Positions 2,722-48,148 of a stretch of DNA of 64,000 bases are shown here, one piece after another. This stretch comes from Acidimicrobiales bacterium. Lineage in GTDB: Bacteria > Actinomycetota > Acidimicrobiia > Acidimicrobiales > Aldehydirespiratoraceae. The notes under the pieces are model-generated. The model did no database searches. It was not told the origin of the DNA and saw nothing but the letters and a program-made list of their open reading frames with translations. A program made the position numbers and the translations under genes. Positions within the stretch are counted from its first letter, which is position 1. Each line of letters starts with the position of its first letter. Location: contig JAWPML010000001.1 in the NCBI GenBank assembly GCA_033344915.1, positions 844,369 through 908,368 on the forward strand, in the 5' to 3' direction.

Positions 2722-3354
2722 TCAGGCGCCGCCGAGTCGACGATCGATGAGGCGCTCGATCCAGCGGCTGATCGTGTCGACCTCCTGGGCGCCCTGGACC
2801 GGCAGGACCTCGTCGATCACGAGGGTCGGTACCGCGGTGACGCCGGACTGGATGGCGGCGTTGTGCTCGTCGAGCACCTCTTCGACGAGGGTGCGTTCGC
2901 GCTCGGCGGTGAGCGTCATGAACTCGTCGCGGTCGACACCGACGTCACCGGCGAGCTCGGACAGCACTCCCCAGTCGGAGATTGTGCGGTTGTCGGTGAA
3001 GTACGCCTCGAGGAGCCGGTGGTGGAAGTCGTCGGCCGCGTCCGGTTCGATCAGGGCCAGGCTCTTCGCGGCCACGTGGGCGGGCACACTCGACACCGGC
3101 TGCGGGTTGTCGGTGGCCCACACGTTGAACGTCGCCGCGGGCTCGACCTCGGCCGGCCGGAGCCAGGACTTCGTGTAGGCGACGAACTTCTCCTGATCGG
3201 TCGCCTTGTTCTCTGTGCGGAGCAGGAACGCCCGCCACGAGACATCGATCTGATCGCCGAACCGGCGCTTCAACTCATCGAGACGGACCGTCCCGACGTA
3301 GCACCAGGGTCAAAGGAAGTCGCTCCAGGCGACGATCTGGACCGGATCGCTCAT
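2722..3354 (-). CDS. DsbA/FrnE-type oxidoreductase, selenoprotein (UPWC active site)
   Basis: Thiol-disulfide oxidoreductase of the DsbA/FrnE family (thioredoxin fold with helical insert), 210 residues, no signal peptide, so cytoplasmic. Translation from ATG 3354 reads MSDPVQIVAWSDFL, then an in-frame TGA at 3310-3312, then PWCYVGTVRLDEL. The family motif here is CPWC, so the TGA replaces the nucleophilic first Cys at residue 15 and is best read as selenocysteine. The rest is intact, including the cis-proline loop GVTAVPTLVI. A SECIS-type hairpin follows the TGA. Starting at the internal ATG 3273 removes the active site. A TACTGT box 6 nt before ATG suggests a leaderless mRNA. A nonsense mutation is possible but unlikely given the exact position and the undecayed downstream frame. 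Confidence 0.92.
3278..3296 (-). promoter_or_regulatory. bSECIS-like hairpin after the UGA of the DsbA-type gene
   Basis: In the mRNA, a 7-bp stem with one G-U pair (UCGGGAC / GUCUCGA) closes a 5-nt loop GGUCC. The stem begins 14 nt and the loop 21 nt after the UGA. Bacterial SECIS elements recognised by SelB have a loop about 16-37 nt downstream with a G at the first or second loop position; both conditions hold. Confidence 0.85.
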
Positions 3355-46292: not shown

Positions 46293-46832
46293 ATGGACAT
46301 CGGGGGACCACAGTACGCGGCGGTCGGCGGTGTGCACGCGGTGCCGGTGGCGAACGTGGCCGGCACGCTCATTCTGTGTGGTCTCGACGCGATCGGGCCC
46401 GATCCCGCCGCGCTGGTCGCGGTCGTCGAGGCGACCGCCGTCGTGTGCCTCCAGACCGAGACCGAGATGGCGCGCCGCTATCCGACCTATCTCGACTGGC
46501 TGGCCACGCCGGGCTCGACGAGCGTCGTCCATCTCCCGACCGAGGATCACCTGGTCACCGACGACGATGCCGTGGCCGATCTCGTGCTGGACATCCACCG
46601 GCGGATGTCGGCGGGCGGTCGGGTGCTCGTGCACTGTGGTGCCGGTTGGGGCCGCGCCGGCGTGATCGCCGTCCTCGTGATGTGCGCAGCGGGCGCCGAC
46701 ATCGACACCGCCCTGCGCGACCTCCGGCTCGCTCGACCCGCGGCCGGGCCGCAGTCCGCGGCCCAGGATCTTCAGGTTGCCCGGATCGCGCCGCGAGTGC
46801 GCGAGTCGGTCACTCCTCGCCGTAACGCTTGA
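46293..46832 (+). CDS. Dual-specificity / tyrosine phosphatase
   Basis: Cysteine-dependent phosphatase of 179 residues. The P-loop is HCGAGWGRAG (HCx5R) near residue 115, preceded by the general-acid loop HLPTEDHLVTDDD. Such proteins dephosphorylate tyrosine or phosphoserine/threonine in proteins, or lipids. The frame upstream of ATG 46293 extends through the divergent gene and is not translated. Its 3' end overlaps the convergent selenoprotein gene by 23 bp. The substrate is unknown. Confidence 0.85.
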   Translation: MDIGGPQYAAVGGVHAVPVANVAGTLILCGLDAIGPDPAALVAVVEATAVVCLQTETEMARRYPTYLDWLATPGSTSVVHLPTEDHLVTDDDAVADLVLDIHRRMSAGGRVLVHCGAGWGRAGVIAVLVMCAAGADIDTALRDLRLARPAAGPQSAAQDLQVARIAPRVRESVTPRRNA

Positions 46833-47076
46833 TGTCGCCGACGATGGCGGTGAAGAGGTCGAGCACCTCGCCCGGCTCCGCGTGGCGACCGGTCTCGGCC
46901 TTCGAGTAGATCAGCTCGCCGTCGACCACCACGTCGTAGACGCCCGATCCACCGGTCCTCAGGGTGAGGGACTCGATGACGTGCTGATAGTTGGACAGCA
47001 GATCAGCGGTCGCGCTCACGGCGCGACTCGAATAATCTCAAGGGACGCAGTAGGTGATCTCGATCGTGTGGGCCAT
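46810..47076 (-). CDS. SelW/Rdx-family selenoprotein (CVPU motif)
   Basis: Small thioredoxin-like redox protein of the SelW/SelT/SelH (Rdx) family, 88 residues. Reading from ATG 47076 gives MAHTIEITYCVP, an in-frame TGA at 47038-47040, then DYSSRAVSATADLL and the typical GGSGVYDVVVDGELIYSKAETGRHAEPGEVLDLF-type body (pattern). In relatives the motif is CxxC or CxxU; here it is C10-V-P-U13, so the TGA encodes selenocysteine. Using the internal GTG 47019 loses the active site. It follows the YbaK gene by 18 bp on the same strand, is divergent from the thiol peroxidase region and overlaps the phosphatase 3' end. A TACGCT box lies 6 nt before the ATG. A role in thiol or peroxide metabolism is inferred from the family. 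Confidence 0.93.
47009..47027 (-). promoter_or_regulatory. bSECIS-like hairpin after the UGA of the SelW-like gene
   Basis: In the mRNA, a perfect 7-bp stem GUCGCGC / GCGCGAC closes the 5-nt loop CGUGA. The loop begins 18 nt after the UGA and has G at its second position, fulfilling the bacterial SECIS rules. Confidence 0.88.
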
Positions 47077-47094: not shown

Positions 47095-47565
47095 TCACCA
47101 ACCGGCAATGGGCGCGAATGTCGCGTCGAGCACGTCCGCCATCGCATCCGGCGCGACCGCGACCTCGAGTCCTCGACGACCGGCGCTGCAGTAGAGAACG
47201 TCGAGGGTCGTGGCCCACTCGTCGACGAAGGTCGGCACGGTCCGTTTCTGCCCGAACGGGCTGATGCCTCCGACCACATAGCCGGAGCGGCGCTCGGCGA
47301 CGTCGGGCGCCGCCATGGTCGCCCGCTTGTGCCCGGCGGCCCTCGCGATCGCCTTCAGGTCGAGCATCGCCCCGACGGGAACGACGCCGATCGCGAAACT
47401 CGCGTCCTCGAACTCGACCATGAGCGTCTTGAAAACCGACTCGGGATCGACGCCCAGCGCCTCGACGGCCTCCTCGGCGTAGCTCGGGTGAGCGGGGTCG
47501 TGCTCGTAGTCGAACACCTCGTGGGCCACGCCGGCGGCCCGGAGCATCTCGATCGCCGGAGTCAC
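47095..47565 (-). CDS. YbaK/EbsC-family aminoacyl-tRNA deacylase
   Basis: Trans-editing protein of 156 residues that removes mischarged amino acids from tRNA (Cys-tRNA-Pro for YbaK, related specificities for others). Conserved segments are VFKTLMVEFEDASFAIGVVPVGAMLDLKAIARAAG (pattern) near residue 50 and YVVGGISPFGQKRTVPTFVDE near residue 100. GTG 47565 begins a typical N-terminus (VTPAIEMLRAAGVAHEVFDYEHDP). It lies upstream of the SelW-like gene. Proofreading of tRNA next to a selenoprotein gene is probably a coincidence of position, not function. Confidence 0.87.
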   Translation of the reverse strand: MTPAIEMLRAAGVAHEVFDYEHDPAHPSYAEEAVEALGVDPESVFKTLMVEFEDASFAIGVVPVGAMLDLKAIARAAGHKRATMAAPDVAERRSGYVVGGISPFGQKRTVPTFVDEWATTLDVLYCSAGRRGLEVAVAPDAMADVLDATFAPIAGW

Positions 47566-47650: not shown

Positions 47651-48148
47651 ATGGCTGAGATCACCCTCGGAGGCAACCCCATCCACACCAACGGCGAGCT
47701 GCCGACGGTCGGATCGGCGGCGCCGGCGTTCACCCTGACGAAGGCCGACTTCAGCTCGGTCTCCAGTGCCGAACTCGCCGGCCAGGCGATCGTGCTGAAC
47801 ATCTTCCCGTCGATCGACACGGGGATCTGTGCCACCAGTGTGCGGACGTTCAACGAGCGCGCCGCTGACCTCGACGCCACCATCCTGTGCGTCTCGGCCG
47901 ACCTGCCGACGGCGGCGGGTCGGTTCTGCGGGGCCGAGGGAATCGAGAACGTGGCGACGGCCTCCACCTTCAAGAACCCCGAGGTGCTCGACGACTACGG
48001 CGTGCGGATGACCGACGGCAAGCTGGAGGGCCTGGCCGCCCGGTCCGTCGTGGTCATCGGCGCGGACGGCTATGTCTCCCACGCCGAGCTCGTCCCCGAG
48101 ATCGCCCAGGAGCCCGACTACGACGCCGCGATCGCCGCGCTCGGCTGA
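47651..48148 (+). CDS. tpx: Thiol peroxidase (Tpx, atypical 2-Cys peroxiredoxin)
   Basis: Reduces hydroperoxides with thioredoxin as electron donor, in the cytoplasm. Protein of 165 residues with PSIDTGICATSVRTFN (peroxidatic Cys60) and RFCGAEGIENVATAS (resolving Cys93), the fixed pair of Tpx enzymes. N-terminal AEITLGGNPIHTNGELPTVGSAAPAFTLT matches Tpx as a family pattern. Unlike its neighbour the SelW-like protein it uses ordinary cysteine at the catalytic site. The gene is followed after 35 bp by the P450 gene. Confidence 0.95.
   Translation: MAEITLGGNPIHTNGELPTVGSAAPAFTLTKADFSSVSSAELAGQAIVLNIFPSIDTGICATSVRTFNERAADLDATILCVSADLPTAAGRFCGAEGIENVATASTFKNPEVLDDYGVRMTDGKLEGLAARSVVVIGADGYVSHAELVPEIAQEPDYDAAIAALG

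Follow-up and report, generated by a model that had tools for sequence, protein, structure and literature searches.

A CVPU gene of the Rdx/SelW family, very probably encoding a selenoprotein, in an Acidimicrobiales genome and its UVPU relatives

The 64-kb stretch of DNA analyzed here (the window) carries what we consider, with high confidence, to be a functional gene for a Rdx/SelW-like selenoprotein, in which UGA 47040-47038 would be read as selenocysteine (Sec) by means of SelB, Sec-tRNA(UCA), and a hairpin in the mRNA. Genes, conservation, RNA signature, family, and predicted fold together indicate that Sec very probably lies at the active site of the protein. The gene comprises the following features.

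46810-47076, minus strand: predicted Rdx/SelW-like selenoprotein gene, 88 amino acids with Sec13, stop included in the coordinates (Pfam and TIGR profiles, predicted fold)
47038-47040, minus strand: in-frame UGA, predicted Sec codon, at the fourth position of C-V-P-U (frame reading, TGA conservation)
46810-46812, minus strand: natural UGA stop of the Rdx gene (frame reading)
47009-47027, minus strand: predicted SECIS hairpin, 7-bp stem GUCGCGC/GCGCGAC, loop CGUGA at 47016-47020, 17 nt after the UGA

The first-pass annotation of the window had claimed a SelW/Rdx-family frame in which the TGA gives C-V-P-U, and it had pointed out that default ORF calling starts at 47019 and loses the motif. Reading of the minus strand from 47076 to 46810 gave MAHTIEITYCVPUDYSSRAVSATADLLSNYQHVIESLTLRTGGSGVYDVVVDGELIYSKAETGRHAEPGEVLDLFTAIVGDIKRYGEE, with U at codon 13, and bore out both the frame and the motif, and the default ORF indeed starts with GTG at 47019 and gives a 69-aa product. 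The family assignment was upheld by profile, motif, and predicted fold. Against PF10262 (Rdx), the protein scored 60.9 bits (cut-off 22.6, E 1.4e-16) over residues 4 to 74 and profile positions 1 to 71 of 74, and TIGR02174 (CXXU_selWTH) was also passed (45.7 bits, cut-off 34.2). The score against the equivalog NF041051 (SelTWH_Campy), 68.6 bits, was below its cut-off of 88 bits, and the protein was not filed there. In a fold model with U read as C (pLDDT 96), the CxxC/CxxU motif that follows the first strand in this family was found as C10-V-P-U13, between a predicted strand at residues 3 to 10 and a predicted helix at residues 16 to 33. The best Foldseek matches in the PDB were the SelW-related structures 2fa8, 2oka, 2obk, 3dex, and 2p0g, and mouse SelW (2npb) was also matched (query TM, 0.64 to 0.85). 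C10, C13 (Sec read as C), and G45 were invariant in 51 aligned proteins. The genome holds a single Rdx match, and tblastn of the protein against plasmids gave none.

The distribution of the family was examined at three levels. Within the genus, all 7 genomes, including that of the window, carried Rdx with one TGA. Within the order, Rdx was found in 85 of 298 genomes, and each of the 86 matches contained TGA, once in 79 of them and twice in 7; residues were read in 51 of the 86, and TGA (U) stood at the fourth motif position in all 51. In the phylum sample, 56 of 396 genomes had Rdx (57 matches, 40 with TGA and 17 without). The motif was read in 14 of the 17 TGA-less matches, as CTQC or CTRC, CASC, CDPC, and CWEC, so that the Sec position is Cys in Rdx proteins without TGA.

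The first-pass annotation had made its reading depend on the presence of sel genes, and selC, selA, selB, and selD were all found in the genome, which is a single contig of 4,481,363 bases. ARAGORN detected no tRNA in the 64-kb window; tRNA-Sec lies elsewhere in the genome (64 bits, cut-off 47; anticodon TCA). SelB scored 275.7 bits (cut-off 242.25), with the profile covering residues 2 to 353 of 571; the C-terminal part, which is the part of SelB that binds the SECIS, is present in frame outside the matched stretch. The SelA gene (385.7 bits, cut-off 267.9) is directly before selB. SelD (359.8 bits, cut-off 125; locus L076, G000 C1:1225971-1226897) has one in-frame TGA, with the motif GUGCK, and is therefore probably a selenoprotein itself. 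Across the order, SelB at E<=1e-60, the threshold used for co-occurrence, was found in 178 of 298 genomes (163 over the curated cut-off), and it accompanied Rdx in 81 of 85 genomes versus 97 of 213 genomes without Rdx (Fisher p 1.6e-17). Three of the 4 Rdx genomes without SelB at this threshold have tRNA-Sec over the cut-off. G170, an Rdx genome that is 83% complete, had no SelB at E<=1e-60 and a tRNA-Sec score of 45.9 bits against the cut-off of 47. In the 97 genomes with SelB and no Rdx match, the trait may be maintained by selenoproteins of other kinds, or the assemblies may be incomplete.

The bacterial SECIS model given in the available part of PMC13188914 specifies a loop of 3 to 9 nt, a stem of 4 to 16 bp, G in the first two loop positions, a spacing of 16 to 37 nt, and an MFE of <= -7.5. 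The hairpin at 47009-47027 lies within all of these limits (loop 5 nt, stem 7 bp, G second, spacing 17, MFE -17.4). The window has 1269 TGAs, of which 261 pass this test, and the hairpin of a single sequence was therefore not accepted as strong evidence. Sequence 3' of the natural stop UGA gave no hairpin fitting the model, and Rfam at gathering thresholds had no match in the window. According to the available part of PMC8659212, the bases that are fixed in the element of E. coli are U17, G23, and U24, and the bulged U17 is essential. The loop G-U of the window agrees with G23 and U24, whereas its stem is without a bulged U; SECIS elements of other bacteria need not resemble those of E. coli, according to the available text of PMC13188914.

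The hairpin region was compared among relatives in its codons and in its stem. Codon statistics were drawn from 96 distinct complete sequences (loci up to L127), split into sets of 59, 7, 16, and 14, and comparisons left out pairs at >=80% identity (85% for the three small sets). Selection of the 59 Sec genes of the order required A-V at +6/+7 and one of S, G, or R at +8; this choice fixes the amino acids there but not the codons. Among them, Ser +8 was AGC in 49 of 49, Val +7 was GTG in 57 of 59, and Ala +6 was GCC in 56 of 59. In amino-acid-conserving pairs below 80% DNA identity, codons +6, +7, and +8 were identical in 89, 93, and 100%, compared to 46.6% over +12 to +54. The 14 Cys-form genes had no codon excess (0.487 over +1 to +11 versus 0.54). 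In the remaining Sec groups, of 7 and 16 genes, another set of codons is locked: whenever Ala +6 or Gly +8 is present, its codon is GCC or GGT, respectively. A GGUCU-type loop is suggested in these groups by visual inspection only. A second type of Rdx gene was observed in the same order (L025, L027, L028, L040, L045, L066, and L070); it has CVPU, a later W-A-P segment, and the locked codons GTC GGT CTG, which suggests another SECIS loop.

Covariation was scored on 52 of the 59 sequences, those with distinct hairpin stretches, and the loop G-U was invariant in all 52. The covariation score was 0.187 versus 0.109 in shuffles, 87.3% of stem cells were paired versus 82.1, and 18 cells were changed on both sides versus 7.1; in each case, 0 of 500 shuffles were as high, and slid controls reached at most a score of 0.085 and 69.6% paired. 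Two measures that relatedness inflates least, according to the tool, gave unexceptional values for the 52 sequences: pairs changed on both sides numbered 3 versus 2.0 (48 of 500 shuffles as high), and further pair types numbered 6 versus 5.5 (251 of 500). In the common 5-bp stem, the outer two pairs were unpaired in 17 and 16 of the 52 sequences, and the RNAalifold consensus had 3 bp only. Covariation of the stem is moderate. The locked codons and the invariant loop G-U provide a strong comparative signal for the predicted SECIS.

Three other readings of the UGA were weighed against these data. If it were a true stop, the real gene would be the 69-aa ORF from GTG 47019 that default ORF calling yields, and the upstream part would be chance or decay. 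However, the UGA falls inside the Pfam match, and both strand 1 and the Cys preceding the UGA belong to the predicted fold and are conserved among the relatives whose residues were read. The putative GTG start is a Val codon within the SECIS loop; a true stop at 47040-47038 is very unlikely. Errors from TGC or TGT to TGA do occur in single genomes, and the first-pass annotation had named such a sequencing or assembly error as a way in which its reading could fail. The Rdx TGA is not such an error, because it recurs in 7/7 genomes of the genus and 86/86 matches of the order; this recurrence rules the objection out, and we assign it a negligible probability. An open frame under another code is likewise no proof of Sec, and UGA might be reassigned in this lineage (for example, to Trp) and not recoded. 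Yet the Rdx gene itself ends in UGA, which rules out a reassigned code; tRNA-Sec, SelA, SelB, and SelD are present, and the position is that of Cys in the TGA-less proteins. The chance of reassignment is as slight as that of sequencing error.

In the favored reading, that of UGA recoded as Sec, SelB with Sec-tRNA(UCA) would bind the hairpin at 47009-47027, and the ribosome would then decode UGA 47040-47038 as Sec. The predicted fold of this small product is thioredoxin-like, and C10-V-P-U13 separates strand 1 from helix 1. Sec13 would attack a disulfide, a mixed disulfide, or a peroxide, Cys10 would resolve the adduct by forming a selenenylsulfide, and either thioredoxin or a low-molecular-weight thiol would restore the protein. 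We infer this small-redox-protein chemistry to be reasonably likely; SELENOW-like proteins are listed in the available part of PMC13188914 among those known only from bioinformatics.

Three genes adjoin the Rdx gene (rdx).

47095-47565, minus strand: YbaK-type aminoacyl-tRNA editing protein (PF04073), 18 bases upstream of rdx
47651-48148, plus strand: thiol peroxidase, Cys form (NF001808, 221.7 bits, cut-off 123), divergent from ybaK-rdx
46293-46829, plus strand: DSP/PTP-like phosphatase gene (PF22784, 54.3 bits), convergent with rdx and overlapping its 3' end

The profile matches agree with the YbaK and thiol peroxidase neighbors named in the first-pass annotation, and ybaK and rdx may share one transcript. 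The annotation had also proposed a redox neighborhood, and this part stood only within the family: of 12 same-family loci, one of which offers just 150 bases of upstream sequence, 8 have thiol peroxidase next to rdx and 6 have ybaK there, but the compared loci outside the family, with flanks mostly of 1.5 to 2 kb, had no thiol peroxidase or ybaK at E<=1e-8, and YbaK is not a redox enzyme. The same data bear on whether the protein is a dedicated reductant of the divergent thiol peroxidase and not a general redox protein. The divergent arrangement in 8 of the 12 family loci is consistent with such a role, and clustering of genes for Prx and SELENOW-like selenoproteins is reported in the available part of PMC13188914; however, no thiol peroxidase match was found beside rdx in the compared loci outside the family. 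A dedicated role is unlikely on balance, and a partnership of Rdx with the neighboring thiol peroxidase is put forward only tentatively.

A variant with two Sec codons was found in relatives of the window gene. Rdx is present in 20 of the 22 genomes of family f35, which belongs to the same order; 16 of these have two TGAs and 4 have one, and all 16 two-TGA genes read UVPU. A pattern scan of an 84,980-species collection, restricted to this hairpin sequence, returned 12 records, all UVPU and labelled Acidimicrobiia, Acidimicrobiales, Sva0996, or "bacterium"; they include OX638344.1 and OX638350.1. One UVPU record is a marine sponge metagenome bin. The UVPU loci are L056-L062, L082-L097, and L128-L139. 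In a tree of 96 distinct proteins (loci up to L127), UVPU formed one clade (15/15 distinct, support 0.867) nested with two same-family CVPU genes (0.929). tRNA-Sec exceeded the cut-off in the two UVPU genomes tested, and SelB was detected at E<=1e-60 in each of the 7 UVPU genomes of the order sample.

In the UVPU genes, the two UGAs are nine bases apart, and the loop is 17 and 26 nt from them. One hairpin is thus within 16 to 37 nt of both UGAs, and one element may therefore decode the two. The UVPU form of Rdx in f35 is probably a bacterial diselenide-type SelW, in which the other redox Cys has also been replaced by Sec and a single hairpin may serve both codons. The nine residues that follow [FY]SK include a Cys in 14 of 14 distinct UVPU sequences versus 2 of 52 CxxU sequences (loci L019-L097 only, repeats removed); the UVPU sequences are related and do not represent independent events, and the Cys is at different places in two sub-groups. 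This Cys lies in the loop that precedes the final helix and may act as a resolving residue.

The first-pass annotation had counted the Rdx gene as the second selenoprotein in 64 kb, and a good candidate for a further one was recovered elsewhere in the window.

2722-3354, minus strand: DsbA-like protein with UPWC (DSBA domain, 82.2 bits), UGA at 3312-3310

The UPWC motif stands where such proteins have CxxC, and the hairpin fits the same bacterial SECIS model, being one of the 261 of 1269 window TGAs that pass it; the claim of two selenoproteins is supported to that extent. A codon-preference read-through scan of the window picked out 17 TGAs, including the ybaK stop and the Sec codon of Rdx. 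The remaining TGAs were judged by eye to be gene ends, overlaps, or noise, and the DsbA-like one alone was kept.

Comparison with known systems places the window gene within an established group. SELENOW-like selenoproteins of prokaryotes are listed in tables of PMC9312934 and PMC13188914, they stand first, with 427 sequences, in the table of GOS selenoprotein families in PMC2398784, and a SelW-like protein of Symbiobacterium, then classed with the Actinobacteria, is given in the available part of PMC1794560. The window Rdx shares with prokaryotic SELENOW-like proteins (PF10262, CxxU) the family, the motif, the size, and Sec at the second redox position, and there is no difference of substance. 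The nearest solved sequence, SAV_2001 of Streptomyces avermitilis (3dex, E 2e-7), is a Cys form from the same phylum with CTQC in place of CVPU and no Sec. Cys-form genes differ from Sec genes in that the 14 analyzed, a set outside which SAV_2001's own gene falls, are without locked codons. Mouse SelW (2npb) and MIEN1 (2ljk) have the same fold as the window Rdx by Foldseek, at 24% and 19% identity. Eukaryotic SelW carries CxxU, and the eukaryotic SECIS sits in the 3' UTR.

The closest parallels to the UVPU genes are two-Sec proteins of other groups. Table 1 of PMC13188914, in its available part, assigns a single Sec and the CxxU motif to prokaryotic SELENOW-like proteins and restricts UxxU to Prx-like, NF041115, and FmdB proteins; these have two Sec residues like the UVPU relatives but belong to different protein families, and UVPU is missing from the PF10262 entry there. 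UxxU SELENOW is described for amphioxus and Ostreococcus lucimarinus in the available part of PMC7539508. These proteins have two Sec residues and belong to the same family, like the UVPU relatives, but they are eukaryotic, whereas the UVPU genes are bacterial with the hairpin inside the coding region and the window gene has one Sec. Among the papers listed in a literature search, mostly ones available without subscription, none showed a bacterial UxxU Rdx. Since two-Sec UxxU SELENOW is known in two eukaryotes, the novelty of UVPU would lie in its bacterial occurrence and its decoding and not in the motif itself.

Because CxxU SelW-like proteins have long been known, the CVPU gene adds a member to a known kind; it is a well-supported addition to a selenoprotein family that is among the commonest in bacteria. 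Because plain ORF calling truncates this gene, and would truncate its relatives likewise, selenoproteins of the order are easily overlooked. The occurrence of CxxC, CxxU, and UxxU in one protein family provides a natural series for testing what a protein gains from one selenium or from two, and the UVPU relatives allow a direct test of how a pair of close UGAs ahead of one hairpin is decoded.
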